Shown in pieces: positions 5,164 through 24,224 of a stretch of 33,975 bases of DNA. Source of the DNA: a virus; the IMG/VR virus record IMGVR_UViG_3300022689_000093, positions 1 to 33,975 of that record, one strand, 5' to 3'. The notes below the pieces were generated by a model. The model ran no database searches. It saw nothing but the letters and a program-made list of their open reading frames with translations, and was not told the DNA's origin. Both the position numbers and the translations under genes were made by a program. Numbering within the stretch: position 1 is the stretch's first letter; each line of letters starts with the position of its first letter.

Positions 5164-5442
5164 TTACTTTCCAAATATAACAATAACAGGTTCATCTGCA
5201 CCATCAACTTGAGCAGAACTTTCTAGAGTAAAACCACTAGAAGTTATATTAGACTTAACAGAGTATGTGCTTTTATTTGTGCATATTGCATCTAAAACTG
5301 TAGTCAACCCAAACTGTTCTGCTGTATAAGCAACAGGTGTTGAGTTAGCAAAAGCATCGGTACTAGTCCCAGAGCAATCAACTCTAATCATACTAACACT
5401 CCCAAGATTTTCTTTATTACTAATTGTATAACTTTTAGCCAT
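5164..5442 (-). CDS. Small beta-rich protein, first gene of the head operon (possible decoration protein)
   Basis: This 92-residue protein is rich in Ser, Thr, Val and Gly with alternating hydrophobic residues (TYSVKSNITSSGFTL), suggesting a small beta-sandwich. It ends PVIVIFGK. The start is well marked: a GGAGG site lies 8 bases upstream of ATG 5442, and it is the first gene behind the putative leftward promoter at 5481-5495, so it should be strongly expressed. High expression, small size and beta-rich composition fit a capsid decoration or minor virion protein, but this is inference. The next gene starts immediately after its stop. Confidence 0.7.
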   Translation of the reverse strand: MAKSYTISNKENLGSVSMIRVDCSGTSTDAFANSTPVAYTAEQFGLTTVLDAICTNKSTYSVKSNITSSGFTLESSAQVDGADEPVIVIFGK

Positions 5443-5480: not shown

Positions 5481-5495
5481 TTAAATATTATATCA
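5481..5495 (-). promoter_or_regulatory. Leftward head-operon promoter (extended -10)
   Basis: On the minus strand this is TGATATAATATTTAA: an extended -10 (TGnTATAAT, hexamer at 5492-5487) with no clear -35 box. Initiation near 5480 would leave a leader of about 38 nt before the GGAGG and ATG 5442. The same 15 bases occur at 7435-7449 before the structured RNA. Position at the head of the operon supports it; no experimental signal is available. Confidence 0.55.
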
Positions 5496-5545
5496 TATAA
5501 TTAAATAAATATATAAAAAAAATAAAAAAAAAGAGATTTAATACT

Positions 5546-6856
5546 TTGCCAAGTTTTTACGATTTCAATCCAACACCTAAACAAGCAACTTTTATGAGTA
5601 ATCCTAGTAAGTTCAAGCTATTTGGTGGAAGCATGGGTAGTGGAAAATCAACAGTATTATGTGCTTGTGCAATACAAATGTCATTATTATTTCCAAAAAA
5701 TCGTGGTTATTTATGTAGGCATGAGTATACATCCTTTAAAAAAACAACATATGTAGAATTAAAAGATATGTTACCAACTGATCTAATATTAAAAGAAAAC
5801 AAGACAGAAGGTGAGATAATTTTAAAAAATGGTTCAATAATAATCATGGGTGGTTTAGAAAACCCTGATAAATTAAAATCTCTAAACTTAGGGTGGTTTG
5901 GTATAGATGAAGCTACAGAAACAACACAGGACATATTCTATATGTTGATGACGAGGCTTCGTTTAGGTCATATACCAAGTAATAGATTATTTGGCTGGCT
6001 TGCTACAAACCCTGAACCAGGATGGATAAAAGATGAATTTGTAGACCCATGGATTAATAAAACACCAAAGAAAGATTTTACCTTTATTCAAGCACTTCCT
6101 ACTGATAACCCACATCTACCAGAAGGATATATAGAAAGTCTTAGAGAAACATTAAAACCACTACAAGTTGCTAAATATCTAGAAGGATCATGGGATGTAT
6201 TTGATGCTCAAATATTTCCACCTGACTTCATACATTCATCACCTGTTATGCCAACAAGCTTTCAAGCTATATTTATGGCTGTAGATCCAGCTATCACAGA
6301 AGGTGAAGATGAAAAACTAGATGAATCAGCAATATGTGTTGTCGGTATAGATGACAACGATAAGATACACGAAATAGAAACAAGGCATGGTAGGTGGTCT
6401 TTTCAAACAACAATAAACAACTGTAAAGAATTATATGATTATTATAAACCAGATATGTTTGGAGTTGAAAAAGTAGCCTATCAAGCAGCACTTATACAAA
6501 AACTAAATGATGAAAACCTACCAGCTATATCATTAAAAGCAGATAGAGATAAAACAAGAAGAGCATATAGTGTCCAACATATGTTTGAAAATGGAAGAGT
6601 ATTCATAAATAATAAAAAACTAATAAAACAAATGCTAGAATTTCCAGAAGCTTCAAAACATGGTGGACATGATGACCTAGTTGACGCAATGGTATATTGC
6701 CTTATAATGATTAAAGACACATCTTCAAGAGCAGTTACTAAAGTAGAAGATAAGTTAGCTAATTTAAATAACATAGAAAGGGATTTCTGGTTAGATCACA
6801 GAAAAAGGTTTGAAGAAAACAAAAATCGTGGTATAATAGATTACATATATGAGTAA
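5546..6856 (+). CDS. terL: Terminase large subunit
   Basis: The 436-residue protein is the DNA-packaging motor, with an N-terminal ATPase and a C-terminal nuclease. The Walker A motif GSMGSGKST lies at residues 28-36 and a Walker B WFGIDE at 117-122 (D121, catalytic E122). The motif LATNP at 152-156 fits the coupling (motif III) position. The RNase H-like nuclease has acidic residues at D247 (AVDPA), E308 (FGVEK) and D376/D377/D380 (HDDLVDA). The start is a TTG at 5546 behind a weak AAGAGAT site; there is no better ATG in frame. It is transcribed away from the head genes and overlaps the next gene by 8 bases. No intein or intron is seen. Confidence 0.95.
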   Translation: MPSFYDFNPTPKQATFMSNPSKFKLFGGSMGSGKSTVLCACAIQMSLLFPKNRGYLCRHEYTSFKKTTYVELKDMLPTDLILKENKTEGEIILKNGSIIIMGGLENPDKLKSLNLGWFGIDEATETTQDIFYMLMTRLRLGHIPSNRLFGWLATNPEPGWIKDEFVDPWINKTPKKDFTFIQALPTDNPHLPEGYIESLRETLKPLQVAKYLEGSWDVFDAQIFPPDFIHSSPVMPTSFQAIFMAVDPAITEGEDEKLDESAICVVGIDDNDKIHEIETRHGRWSFQTTINNCKELYDYYKPDMFGVEKVAYQAALIQKLNDENLPAISLKADRDKTRRAYSVQHMFENGRVFINNKKLIKQMLEFPEASKHGGHDDLVDAMVYCLIMIKDTSSRAVTKVEDKLANLNNIERDFWLDHRKRFEENKNRGIIDYIYE

Positions 6857-7397
6857 AGATTGTTTATTAGTACCAAAGAACACACAAGAAATAGCACAAC
6901 ATGGCTATAATACATTGCCATTTAGGTTACAAAACCTTGTAAACCAACTCGTACTAAATATACCAAAAGATGAAATATATGACGCAATAGTAAGCGAGCA
7001 GGAAAATAAAACATATACAACATCTTTAAAGCCTGCATATAGAAGTTCAGACAATAAAGCACCTAACAAAAGAAAAAAAGAAGAATATATAAGCAACACA
7101 ATTCGTAAAAACCACCTAGAAACCATATTAGCATTAAAAACACAAGAAATAGGCAACATATACCTAGATGGATTCAAGAAAATAATGCTTGAAAAACTAG
7201 TAACAAAAGAACTAGTATTAAATAAATTCCTAGAATTAGAAGAAAAAATTAGAAATGAACTACCTAAAAAAGAGCAAGTACCAGCACTACACAAAGTATA
7301 CGACTCAATGGCTAAAATAATAGAAAAACAAGACCAAGGCTTATCTCAAACAAATATCCAAATAAACAACAATATCCCAGGTTTTGAAGAAAAATAA
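6849..7397 (+). CDS. Hypothetical protein, possible terminase small subunit
   Basis: This 182-residue, mostly helical protein has a Lys-rich segment (about residues 60-85) and a long coiled-coil-like C-terminal half, ending IPGFEEK. The N-terminal 60 residues could form a small helical DNA-binding unit (LQNLVNQLVLNIPKDEIYDAI), but no classic helix-turn-helix is certain. It overlaps terL by 8 bases and is the only other gene in that operon, which makes a small-terminase role plausible, though that gene usually precedes terL. It ends 50 bases before the RNA gene. The functional call is inference from position and helical composition. Confidence 0.45.
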   Translation: MSKDCLLVPKNTQEIAQHGYNTLPFRLQNLVNQLVLNIPKDEIYDAIVSEQENKTYTTSLKPAYRSSDNKAPNKRKKEEYISNTIRKNHLETILALKTQEIGNIYLDGFKKIMLEKLVTKELVLNKFLELEEKIRNELPKKEQVPALHKVYDSMAKIIEKQDQGLSQTNIQINNNIPGFEEK

Positions 7398-7414: not shown

Positions 7415-7449
7415 ACTTCACATTTAAAAAACTATGATATAATATTTAA
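7415..7449 (+). promoter_or_regulatory. Promoter of the structured RNA
   Basis: An extended -10, TGATATAAT, lies at 7435-7443 with the hexamer at 7438-7443. ACTTCA at 7415-7420 stands 17 bases upstream as a weak -35. Initiation would fall near 7450, just before the first helix of the RNA. The 15 bases 7435-7449 are identical to the core of the leftward head promoter. Confidence 0.6.
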
Positions 7450-7960
7450 TCGTTATTAAAAATAATAACCCTAAATGTTTCGGTACAGGAGAGAAACTCC
7501 CAGACGAAGGGCATTTAGCGATAAAGGTGGTACTTGGGAACTCAACACACCACCACTCGGAGCAAGCTGGGTAAGTAAGCATTAGTAAATCTGAAATGGA
7601 ATTCAAGGATAAAACCTCTTCCATGTAGGCAAACTAAGTTACACCCTGTCCTAGAGAGGTTGAGGAGGCATTAGCTGTCTTAGCTAGGACTACTGTATAG
7701 AGCTAATTCAAATGCAGTGTGAGATGAAGGGGCTACTCAAAAGACAACAGTTTCTCCCTCTCATATAAAAGCCTTTAGTAATTGTATGGTTTTTATTACT
7801 TTTTCTTCCATACTCTTACTAAGGGCACCTTTATGTTCAAATCAGCTAACTTTCTCTCAGACATTCAGTGTGTTTAGTGAGCCTTTCAGGCGAAATAGAT
7901 AACACTGATAACATAGAGAAAGAACTACTAAAACAATCTATCCCCCCGATTTGAACACTA
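7450..7960 (+). ncRNA. Large structured noncoding RNA, ROOL/GOLLD-like candidate
   Basis: This stretch of about 510 bases has no convincing reading frame and is visibly richer in G and C than its flanks. Perfect or near-perfect helices can be drawn: 7471-7477 with 7512-7518, 7526-7531 with 7549-7554, 7596-7601 with 7619-7624 (inner 7606-7608 with 7615-7617), and 7648-7654 with 7684-7690. Further along are 7719-7724 with 7759-7764, and an 11-bp stem 7771-7781 with 7816-7826 extended by 7784-7789 with 7808-7813. A nested 3' domain pairs 7835-7843 with 7948-7956, 7850-7857 with 7915-7922, 7866-7871 with 7902-7907, and 7881-7884 with 7888-7891. A promoter precedes it. Size, complexity and a phage setting match the ROOL (rumen-originating, ornate, large) class best, with GOLLD as alternative; I cannot align it to either. 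Group I and II intron cores were not found. Confidence 0.75.
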
Positions 7961-8725
7961 TCCTAAATAAATAATTAATATATATATATATAAAATAAAT
8001 AATTAAACTAAACTATCTTAAGTATATCTATGTCTTAAATATATTTCGTTCAAAATAATGTAAATCTACTCCACTATTACAAAAATCTACACGAATATTA
8101 GGAATAATCCGTACAAGTTTTATATAGAGTTTAGATCGGATTTAAGTACCCCCGTTCAATGCATGGGTGGGGTCTAAAATAAATGATAGTCAAATATTTG
8201 ATATAAACAATTTTAGTTTATGTTCCTTATATATTAAACTAATTTAGTTTATATTAATAAGCCTTGTTTTATGTGTTTATAGTCTAATTATATTGATTGA
8301 TAACTGTTGTTTGAAAAACATATACTCTTGACATATACTTGTCTTTGTTCATCTTTGTAAAGAATACACGATAGAATATTTTTATTACTATGATAGATTA
8401 TTTTTAATTAACTTAATAATCTTGTTGTGTGTTAATCTTATAATTAATACTATATGGTATTATATATTGACTAGGATAATTTAATTATTTAGTTGATTAT
8501 TTAAAAATAGTCTTTGACATTTTTAGATTGACTAATTGTTTGACATAGTTGTATACATTTTAAACAGTTTTTTTAGTCGCTGTTTAGTTCTTTATAGAGG
8601 CTGTTTGAATTTATCTTTTTTCACACTTTAAAATTTAACTTATTTTTTGTAAATCTTTTTTAATTTATTTTTATCTTTTTTTCTAAACACTTGATTTTAT
8701 TTAGAATAAAAATCTTTAAAACATA
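7961..8725 (+). other. AT-rich gene-free region between the RNA and the early operon
   Basis: No reading frame in this stretch has both a ribosome site and plausible protein composition. It begins with A/T-only runs (7970-8000). It contains one GC-rich patch at 8148-8174, where ACCCC and GGGGT could pair, and several TTGAC boxes further on. Together with its position between operons it looks like a control region or replication origin. No T-rich hairpin terminator is obvious directly after the RNA. Confidence 0.5.
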
Positions 8726-8731
8726 TTGACA
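8328..8731 (+). repeat. Cluster of TTGAC(A/T) boxes
   Basis: Six same-strand copies occur at 8328, 8467, 8514, 8528, 8540 and 8726. Two of them are TTGACATA (8328 and 8540). Only 8528 (with TATACA at 8552, spacer 18) and 8726 (with TACACT at 8749, spacer 17) make good promoter pairs. The rest may be old promoters or binding sites for an initiator or regulator. Confidence 0.4.
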
Positions 8732-8754
8732 ACACATCTCAAGTCTGATACACT
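8726..8754 (+). promoter_or_regulatory. Early operon promoter
   Basis: A consensus -35 TTGACA (8726-8731) is followed by an exact 17-base spacer and -10 TACACT (8749-8754). Initiation near 8761 would fall in TAAACAGTTG, a motif also found near two other putative promoters, which suggests an operator. The first gene starts at 8800 behind AAAGGAG. Confidence 0.6.
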
Positions 8755-8799
8755 TATAAACAGTTGAGAAACAAAAAAAACTTTAAAGGAGTATTAAAA

Positions 8800-9153
8800 A
8801 TGAAAAACAAAAAATTAAAAAATCTTATTAAGCTAGGTAGTAAAGTTAGTATTTATGTACCAAGCACCATAGATATTAACAAAGATTTTGATAATAAGAT
8901 AATAGTAGATAAGACTTTATCATTATTATCTGAAAAGTTTGGAGGTGCAACAAGTACCAAAGCAATCGGATGCTGGGTTACCAATTCTAAAGACTTGGTA
9001 AAAGAACAAGTAACCTTATGCTATGCATATACTGATAGTATAACATTAGAAAAAGAGATTAATAACATAATAGATTATTGTTTAAAGTTAAAGAAGGAGC
9101 TTAAACAAGAAGCAATTAGCTTAGAAATAAACAATGAATTATATTTTATATAA
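8800..9153 (+). CDS. Conserved small phage/plasmid protein of unknown function
   Basis: The start is placed at ATG 8800 because AAAGGAG lies 9 bases before it; an in-frame TTG at 8764 sits at the expected transcription start and lacks a ribosome site. The 117-residue protein has the pattern IYVPSTID near residue 20, a FGGATSTKAIGCW block near residue 50 and a C-terminus with QEAISLEINNELYFI. I recognise this arrangement from small proteins carried by plasmids and phages of low-GC anaerobes, but know no function. It is the first gene of the early operon, a place often used for host-takeover or anti-defence genes. Confidence 0.8.
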   Translation: MKNKKLKNLIKLGSKVSIYVPSTIDINKDFDNKIIVDKTLSLLSEKFGGATSTKAIGCWVTNSKDLVKEQVTLCYAYTDSITLEKEINNIIDYCLKLKKELKQEAISLEINNELYFI

Positions 9154-15764: not shown

Positions 15765-15780
15765 ATGAATTACAAACATG

Positions 15781-15820
15781 TATTTAGCATGCAGAGTATA
15801 TATTTAGCATGCAGAGTATA
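15781..15820. repeat. Tandem 20-bp direct repeat with palindromic GCATGC core
   Basis: TATTTAGCATGCAGAGTATA occurs twice head to tail (15781-15800, 15801-15820). An inverted partial copy, CATGCTAAA, lies at 15866-15874. It sits in the convergent gap between the early operon and the end of the late operon. It may be a protein-binding site, an origin iteron pair or a recombination site. Confidence 0.7.
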
Positions 15821-21739: not shown

Positions 21740-22609
21740 CTATTTATATCTTATATATCTTTTTACTTTAAGTGATTCAGGTTGTATATCTTGATTTGGA
21801 TTTAATGCGTTACTTAAAGAAGAAGAACTCACGCTTCCAATAGTAAGAGCATCATTACCCGTATAATAACTTGTATAACCAGACGAACTCATGTTTAATG
21901 TTGTACCAAAAAAAGACGGAATGTCGTCTGCTCCACCACTATGACCACTATTAAGGCTATATGCGTCCTCTTGAAAACCACAAACTTCTGTCACTGTACC
22001 TGCGTATAGGTCCATATTTATGTAAAGGTTGTTATAACCCCCATAAAAGTCTTCGTTCACATAAATTCTAGCATAACCAGACATTGAGTGGTGATGAGCC
22101 ATTCTGTGGTTATGTGAAATTGTCCCATCATGGGTATGGTCATCTAAAGTATGAGTATGCTCAATGTTTACCATGTGATCAGTTGCTCCAACTGGTGTTG
22201 CGTTTATTGTGTCTGTAGCAATACTGCCAGGTGTATCTAAACTACCTGCACCTATTAAATATTTGTTATCTAAATCAGGTATATTTAACCCATTAAAAAC
22301 ACTGTCTACATCTGAAACAACACTGCCGTCACATAACTTCCAAACATCTGCGTCTGGAGCAGGTACTATACTAGCTAAATCATCAGGGATCCAAACGTCA
22401 ATAACTCTGCCTTTTGGGTTTAAAGACTGAACGATGTCATTTAAAGTGTTGTAATCTCCTATATTCTCTGTTCCTAAACCGTGAATACCAGTAGTGTCAG
22501 TATCGTGATAGTTATATTTTGTTTTAATTTCTGTAAAATTAGAATTAAATGGAGGTGATAATATTTTAGTATTATTAATTATTTTGTTTAAATTAGTTAT
22601 TTGAGTCAT
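21740..22609 (-). CDS. Tail fibre paralogue 1, His-rich collar/tip protein
   Basis: One of three tandem related genes, 289 residues. The N-terminal 45 residues carry the shared block KYNYHDTDTTGIHG (virion attachment). The next 90 residues resemble a collar-type domain (VWKLCDGSV, NIPDLDNKYLIGAG). A striking His cluster follows around residues 150-180 (IEHTHTLDDHTHDG, ISHNHRMAHHH), then a variable Gly/Ser/Tyr-rich tip. The last residues, KVKRYIRYK, are shared with its paralogues. His-x-His repeats in the T4 long-fibre tip gp37 bind a row of iron ions, which is the closest analogue known to me. It overlaps the previous gene by TAATG. Confidence 0.75.
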   Translation of the reverse strand: MTQITNLNKIINNTKILSPPFNSNFTEIKTKYNYHDTDTTGIHGLGTENIGDYNTLNDIVQSLNPKGRVIDVWIPDDLASIVPAPDADVWKLCDGSVVSDVDSVFNGLNIPDLDNKYLIGAGSLDTPGSIATDTINATPVGATDHMVNIEHTHTLDDHTHDGTISHNHRMAHHHSMSGYARIYVNEDFYGGYNNLYINMDLYAGTVTEVCGFQEDAYSLNSGHSGGADDIPSFFGTTLNMSSSGYTSYYTGNDALTIGSVSSSSLSNALNPNQDIQPESLKVKRYIRYK

Positions 22610-23406
22610 TAGTTATACCTCAAGTAATATCTTACCTTTACAGACATTGGTTTTCTGTCTATGTTTAAATTCTTACTAGCTGCACTAACGCCAGTGCTGC
22701 TACTAACTGTAGAAGTAACAGACAAATTTGTAGTATTTCCAGAATATGTTGAAATAGAACTAGCATAACCTTTTAAAGGATTAAAAGTTCTAGTTACGTT
22801 ATTATTATCATCTATATTGAAATCATCAGTACGTTCTGAAACAGTATAACTATCACAACCAGAAACACCACCATAAAGGTTATCTCCATCTCCTACCCCA
22901 ATATTAAAAAGAACCACTCCTAAAACACCGTGATTACTAGAAAAAGCGTGTTCGTGGCTTATAGAATGATTGTGTGAAAACAAGTGTTCTGAATGGTTTA
23001 GATCAAAAGTATTAGAACCTTCTGTGTTTGTAGAACAAACATTGTCTATTGAAACATATGCCTCTGTCATGTCTGGTAAAACAGTTGTGTTAAAAAAAAC
23101 TTGTCCAGCAGAAGGCATCTCTCCACCATCCATTAAAACCCAATGATCACTGTCTAAAACAGGAACTGTTGCGTCTTCGCTGTCCCATATCGCAATAACT
23201 TCTCCAACAAAAAACAATTTTGAGATCCAACCATTAATATAATTTACCGAAACAATTTCGTCATTACTTTCTATACCATGTACTAATGTTTTATTCTTGT
23301 CGTGAAAATTATATTTTTCTTGTATTAGTTGAAAGTTTTGCCTATGTACATTAGCATCTGGTGTATTACCAACTAATATTTGATTTAATCCTGTTATTTG
23401 ACTCAT
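22609..23406 (-). CDS. Tail fibre paralogue 2, His-rich collar/tip protein
   Basis: Second paralogue, 265 residues, with the same layout: KYNFHDKNKTLVHGIES near residue 31, a collar-like block with DHWVLMDGGEMP and VLPDMTEAYV, and a His cluster around residues 138-160 (NHSEHLFSHNHSISHEH). A variable tip ends in KVRYYLRYN. The tip differs fully from the other two while both ends are conserved, as expected for receptor-binding diversification by duplication. The ribosome site GAGG overlaps the codons of the upstream paralogue's LRYK end. Stop and start overlap as TAATG. Confidence 0.75.
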   Translation of the reverse strand: MSQITGLNQILVGNTPDANVHRQNFQLIQEKYNFHDKNKTLVHGIESNDEIVSVNYINGWISKLFFVGEVIAIWDSEDATVPVLDSDHWVLMDGGEMPSAGQVFFNTTVLPDMTEAYVSIDNVCSTNTEGSNTFDLNHSEHLFSHNHSISHEHAFSSNHGVLGVVLFNIGVGDGDNLYGGVSGCDSYTVSERTDDFNIDDNNNVTRTFNPLKGYASSISTYSGNTTNLSVTSTVSSSTGVSAASKNLNIDRKPMSVKVRYYLRYN

Positions 23407-24224
23407 TACTTATACCTCAAAAAACATCTACACTTTAAATTAACTAGGTTTATATCTACAGAAGTTGAAATATTTGATGATGATGTAACGTTAGAGTTTG
23501 TTCCACTTTGTAAAGACTTATAATCAGTATACCCAGTATCAAAGTTAGGGTATACATTTGTTGAACTCATTATACTTGGAATTCCTTGGGTATATGTGTT
23601 GCTAGACCCTGTTGTCCCAGCGAACGCTTCTCTAAGGTAATGAGTTGCATCTGTAGAGTTAGAAGTTGTCTTTGCTAAATAAAGTTCTCTTCCACCGTTA
23701 TTCCTGTCCCAAAAAACCTGTAGGTCTACAGCAGGAATGTGTGAGTGGACAATATTGTGCCTATGGCTTGATAGACCGTGTGTATGTGTGTTTGTGTGGC
23801 TATGAGAAAGATTTAAAGAGTTATTACTATTCCCAACAAAAGACTGTGATAAACCACTTTCCCCACCCACTATATATACTTCAGACATATCTGGCAATTC
23901 TGTTTGGTTATATAAACTATCTTGATCTTCTACTGAAGTTCCATCCATTTCTATATATATATCACTACTTATTATGGCACTCAACAAAGCGTTGTTGTTG
24001 TCCCATAAGTATATTAAACTACCTATTGGTCTATGTTTTAACAAAAATTCTTCAACCTCGTTTTTACCAACAATCCTGTTAGGAGATGTAACACCATGAA
24101 CGTCAGTAGTAGCATTTTCATGTTCATTAAATTTAGAAGCAATTTCATTATAGTTATAATTTAGATCAAGTGCTTCTACTTTAGATAATGCTGTAAAACT
24201 ATTTAATGTTCCAATTTGTGCCAT
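23406..24224 (-). CDS. Tail fibre paralogue 3, His-rich collar/tip protein
   Basis: Third paralogue, 272 residues, nearest the attachment end of the operon. The shared N-terminal block reads KFNEHENATTDVHGVTS, the collar-like part has IYIEMDGTSV and ELPDMSEVYI, and the His cluster is SHSHTNTHTHGLSSHRHNIVHSH around residues 141-163. The tip is Asn/Thr/Ser-rich, ending KCRCFLRYK. The gene starts one base into the stop of the 176-residue gene (TAATG). Confidence 0.75.
   Translation of the reverse strand: MAQIGTLNSFTALSKVEALDLNYNYNEIASKFNEHENATTDVHGVTSPNRIVGKNEVEEFLLKHRPIGSLIYLWDNNNALLSAIISSDIYIEMDGTSVEDQDSLYNQTELPDMSEVYIVGGESGLSQSFVGNSNNSLNLSHSHTNTHTHGLSSHRHNIVHSHIPAVDLQVFWDRNNGGRELYLAKTTSNSTDATHYLREAFAGTTGSSNTYTQGIPSIMSSTNVYPNFDTGYTDYKSLQSGTNSNVTSSSNISTSVDINLVNLKCRCFLRYK

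Follow-up and report, generated by a model that had tools for sequence, protein, structure and literature searches.

A candidate folded noncoding RNA of about 500 nt between the terminase and early genes of an isolated phage fragment

The stretch of DNA analyzed here (hereafter "the window") is a virus record of 33,975 bases. It is a fragment, with a truncated gene at either end. Its gene products include a large terminase of the classical kind, a portal, a major head protein and a DnaD-like replication protein, along with an exonuclease of the Cas4 type and an endolysin of the M15 type. Structural genes are directed leftward from position 5442, and the terminase and early genes are directed rightward from 5546. 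The phage is isolated, in that its terminase, portal and capsid proteins have relatives at only about 22-30% identity. When relatives were sought in viral contigs via terminase, capsid and portal, the best matches were at ~30% identity or less; the same was true when phages were searched with these three proteins, a tail protein and an exonuclease. Elsewhere on the fragment, three neighboring leftward genes at 21740-24224 (265-289 aa) have similar starts and ends and look like paralogues, probably tail appendage proteins, and a 20-base tandem duplication with TAGCATGCAGAGTATAT is found at 15778-15817, where the rightward cluster ends. The candidate RNA (Table 1) is preceded by ORF 6849-7397 and followed by the first early gene, whose ATG is at 8800; the terminase gene (5546-6856) lies 0.6 kb upstream of the candidate.

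Table 1. Promoter elements, predicted helices and neighboring DNA of the candidate RNA, in window coordinates.
Feature	Position	Strand	Basis or remark
Second exact 17-base promoter core	5481..5497	-	upstream of leftward virion-gene operon, first ORF 5442-5164
Putative promoter: TTCACA 7417-7422, 15-nt spacer, extended -10 TGATATAAT 7435-7443	7417..7443	+	sequence
Whole candidate RNA	7444..7968	+	fold; possible closure AUUUA/UAAAU 7444-7448/7964-7968, probability 0.69
5'-terminal hairpin GUUAUUA/UAAUAAC, 7 bp, AAAA loop	7452..7469	+	pairing probability 0.96
5' domain arm: CUAAAUGU/GCAUUUAG, UUCG/CGAA, GGAG/CUCC; internal loop GUACA/CAGA	7471..7518	+	predicted fold
Hairpins GGUGGU/ACCACC and ACUCGG/CUGGGU	7526..7572	+	pairing probability 0.97 and 0.55
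Long irregular hairpin: UUAGU/ACUAA, UCUG/UAGG, AUGGAA/UUCCAU, AGG/CCU	7575..7642	+	predicted fold
Middle domain, three predicted hairpins	7643..7765	+	predicted fold; z -0.4
11-bp stem 7771-7781/7816-7826 plus 6-bp stem GUAUGG/CCAUAC, 18-nt U-rich loop	7771..7826	+	probability 0.99-1.0
3' domain closed by UGUUCAAAUC/GAUUUGAACA, 10 bp	7834..7957	+	predicted fold
Inside 3' domain: CUUUCUCU/AGAGAAAG, UCAGUGU/ACACUGA, GUUUA/UAGAU, GCCU/AGGC	7834..7957	+	predicted fold
Mostly unpaired strand, six C at its end	7923-7947	+	within 3' domain
Gene-free A+T-rich stretch, 20-28% G+C	7969..8764		between candidate RNA and early genes

As the initial annotation had stated, no convincing gene was found in the candidate region (7444-7968, plus strand). 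The longest ORF across the region encodes 66 aa on the minus strand (7424-7624), and none of the plus-strand ORFs of the region combines a credible ribosome site with a useful length. Base composition was measured in segments of 200 bases. Those starting at 7471-7491 have a G+C content of 45-46%, versus a mean of 29.6% for the window, and the segment starting at 7481 has the highest value anywhere in the 34 kb, which agrees with the earlier description of the region as richer in G+C than its flanks. The maximum falls in the 5' two thirds of the candidate RNA. Raised G+C content in A+T-rich genomes is a usual mark of structured RNA.

The putative promoter includes an exact extended -10 element (TGATATAAT), from which transcription would start near 7450. 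The initial annotation had called this promoter strong. The extended -10 is plausible, but strength is not evident from a motif found at chance frequency (the window contains 6 copies of TGNTATAAT, with 6.05 expected). Better evidence for a promoter is provided by the 17-base core TATGATATAATATTTAA (7433-7449, plus strand), which has exactly one further copy, located at the virion operon; 0.0017 exact copies are expected per shuffle. The common core suggests that the same form of RNA polymerase reads both sites, and the sequence match likewise suggests joint expression of the candidate RNA with the virion genes.

Folding strength was assessed relative to dinucleotide shuffles. The minimum free energy of 7440-7970 is -144.9 kcal/mol versus -117.0 +/- 6.1 for the shuffles (z -4.58, with 0 of 100 as good), and for the reverse strand z is -1.75. 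Both strands were also scanned in 270 windows of 250 bases, with 25 shuffles each, and the most extreme was 7751-8000 on the plus strand (z -7.9). When parts of the region were assayed separately, no shuffle of 300 folded as well as the natural sequence for 7766-7960 (plus strand, z -7.1), nor for 7766-7829 (z -6.4) or 7830-7960 (z -5.0) within it. The 5' domain (7450-7642) is marginal, with z -2.4 and 4 of 300 shuffles as good, and folding excess is absent from the middle part (7643-7765). The earlier observation thus largely holds, and the folding signal is real and uneven along the region. Note that the description of a single ornate RNA of 510 bases is upheld only for the excess folding in 7766-7960; because the excess is concentrated in this part, folding alone fails to show one unit.

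The two helices named in the initial annotation are both present in the predicted fold, with pairing probabilities of 0.96-0.99. The stem formed by 7771-7781 and 7816-7826 contains 10 Watson-Crick pairs and one G-U pair, and the 3' closing stem (7835-7843/7948-7956, 9 bp) grows to 10 bp with the addition of 7834/7957. Most hairpins in the G+C-rich 5' stretch (7470-7765) have pairing probabilities of 0.7-0.97. Complements of 7 bp number 17 in the candidate, against an estimated ~8 expected by chance. The outermost closure of the fold is doubtful because transcription would begin at or after its 5' strand. A possible kissing pair between AUUAGCU (7670-7676) and AGCUAAU (7701-7707) was dropped, being energetically about neutral.

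Two further observations concern the same helices. The segment UGUUCAAAUC at 7834-7843 looks like a tRNA T-loop, and its predicted 10-bp partner is 7948-7957. A perfect 9-bp complement, AUAAAGGUG/CACCUUUAU (7521-7529/7826-7834), links the 5' and 3' domains; it competes with the GGUGGU hairpin and may represent an alternative long-range helix.

The concentration of folding excess on both strands of 7766-7960 (z -4.4 on the strand opposite the candidate) is an argument for the strongest rival to a stand-alone RNA. According to this alternative, only the 3' part (~7766-7960) is functional, for instance as an RNA element in processing, termination or regulation, or as an inverted-repeat site acting at the DNA level behind the packaging genes, and the G+C-rich 7470-7765 is something else, such as a gene remnant. 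The signal from the opposite strand means that the 3' hairpins may indeed be a DNA-level inverted repeat, and the z value of 7643-7765 also fits. However, the putative promoter lies more than 300 bases upstream of the 3' element, and the G+C-rich part is frameless, with high pairing probabilities for most of its hairpins. We consider this alternative unlikely, yet deserving of more weight than any of those that follow.

The DNA downstream of the candidate (7969-8764) shows no excess folding, carries short direct and inverted repeats, and is probably regulatory or origin DNA. Near its end is a promoter-like site (TTGACA-17-TACACT, 8726-8754), followed by the ribosome site AAAGGAG and then by the ATG at 8800. 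Since the early genes have this promoter-like site, they do not require the candidate RNA as a leader. A search for an intrinsic terminator downstream of the candidate RNA found none, and cumulative G-C skew dips to a local minimum near 8000. These two results, the 800 gene-free A+T-rich bases directly downstream and the presence of a DnaD-like replication protein are what would be expected of a longer transcript that continues into 7968-8764, serving as an early-gene leader or as a ColE1 RNAII-like replication pre-primer at an origin located there. This proposal is improbable, given that the skew merely tracks gene direction, that the promoter-like site belongs to the early genes themselves, that a G-rich loop of the RNAII type is not seen (the unpaired tract is C-rich), and that the promoter core is that of the virion operon and not that of an early operon.

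Relatives of the candidate were sought by several methods. Searches with blastn in 50,697 records from phages and 72,556 from plasmids returned chance matches only, and scans of IMG/VR with 5'- and 3'-module patterns, like a pattern scan of GTDB genomes, yielded no acceptable homologue. Matches to the 5'-module pattern in seven genomes of high-G+C type and one virus were not accepted (the virus match is inside a coding gene), nor were those to the 3'-module pattern in 11 viral contigs, which keep at most two of the four hairpin pairs. A blastn match to the L. salivarius megaplasmid (76% over 63 bases) seemed to offer a link to ROOL and was rejected as chance: it lies in annotated coding sequence, at a locus without an Rfam match. 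A single-sequence covariance model of 7832-7959, run on 38 sources, recovers nothing but its own sequence and the mirror of that sequence, with no match in the distant podoviruses MW202795 and MW202554, Microbacterium phage Shocker or other loci. The missing homologues are an absence of data and are not evidence against the structure. As a single sequence, the candidate cannot be called a class.

The initial annotation had proposed a ROOL-type RNA, with GOLLD as the alternative and a new class as the fallback, and neither ROOL nor GOLLD membership is supported by the Rfam searches. At the gathering score, Rfam 15 gave no family match in the window, and permissive cmscan gave only weak matches, to unrelated families from eukaryotes or plant viruses, none beyond chance. 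The covariance models for ROOL (RF03087; bar of 99.1 bits) and GOLLD (RF02032; bar of 150 bits) gave no match even at E 10. As a positive control, covering ROOL only, the same search recovered the ROOL RNA of the L. salivarius UCC118 megaplasmid pMP118 (543 nt, 130.4 bits); abundant long noncoding RNA has been reported from this megaplasmid (PMC5643018). The ROOL consensus words GGAUAC, CAAUAGAC, AGUAGCC, GGUGAAA and CUCAGAC are mostly missing from the candidate. Those present are CUCAGAC (7856) and, with one mismatch, AAUCUAUCC (7935), in an order reversed relative to ROOL. Because there is no model match and the words are missing or misordered, the candidate is not detectably a member of ROOL or GOLLD. 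ROOL RNAs occur in phages or mobile elements, often close to tRNAs; the candidate is carried on a phage fragment, and the 33,975-base window contains no tRNA genes. A ROOL or GOLLD member that has diverged too far for the Rfam models would be compatible with the size and the phage setting, but the failure of both models and of permissive cmscan next to a plasmid control of 130 bits, the state of the consensus words and the lack of tRNAs make this very unlikely. A packaging RNA of the phi29 type is hardly credible despite the nearby terminase gene, since the enzyme is a large terminase that combines ATPase and nuclease domains (Terminase_3, Terminase_6C) rather than a phi29-type ATPase, and the candidate lacks an Rfam match and is about three times as long as phi29 pRNA (about 174 nt).

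The interpretation in the initial annotation was therefore partly right: the locus is best read as encoding a structured noncoding RNA. We favor, with confidence that is about evenly balanced, a stand-alone folded noncoding RNA of ~500 nt that extends from 7450 to ~7960, has its own promoter and acts in the manner of GOLLD and ROOL, to which it is unrelated in sequence. Such an RNA would be transcribed rightward from an extended -10 of its own, using the core that also serves the virion-gene operon, and would accumulate as a stable species made along with the virion genes. It would act through its own fold, consisting of a compact 3' domain and a looser 5' part. By analogy to ROOL and GOLLD, its mode of action might be self-assembly, or a role as scaffold or container. 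Only tentatively, and with considerable doubt, do we raise the broader proposal that it represents an undescribed class of large ornate phage RNAs that has no sequence relationship to ROOL and GOLLD, is expressed together with virion genes and might self-assemble. ROOL and GOLLD are large phage RNAs that form RNA-only cages. If real, an unrelated orphan RNA of about their size that shares its promoter core with capsid genes would provide another case in which to ask how such RNAs act late in infection.

Compared with known systems, the phi29 packaging RNA resembles the candidate in its location near packaging genes, and differs in terminase type and in length; the candidate gave no Rfam match. 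GOLLD, too, is a large phage-borne RNA, one whose 3' part is conserved and whose 5' part is looser; many of its members, however, exceed 800 nt and are near tRNAs (PMC12286853), and the candidate does not match its model. GOLLD RNA accumulates during phage lysis; for the candidate, the promoter core in common with the virion genes is at most suggestive of similar timing. ROOL shares with the candidate a phage-borne location, a length of about 500-650 nt, extensive helices and the absence of a coded protein, and is set apart from it by the model search, the conserved words and tRNA neighbors. Further marks of ROOL are the stems P1-P19, the pseudoknot P10 and assembly into octamers. Both ROOL and GOLLD assemble into homo-oligomeric cages (PMC12286853). 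Other long RNAs come from phage gaps that lack ORFs and are like ROOL or GOLLD in size or abundance. The top transcript of ICP1, a phage without tRNAs, is a noncoding RNA of roughly 800 nt from the ORF-less gap between gp139 and gp140 (PMC7567579), and phage K makes two long noncoding RNAs that have been likened to GOLLD and ROOL (PMC9241854). The RNAs of ICP1 and phage K were seen in RNA-seq, whereas the RNA described here is predicted from one sequence, as a candidate orphan in the broad category to which ROOL and GOLLD belong.
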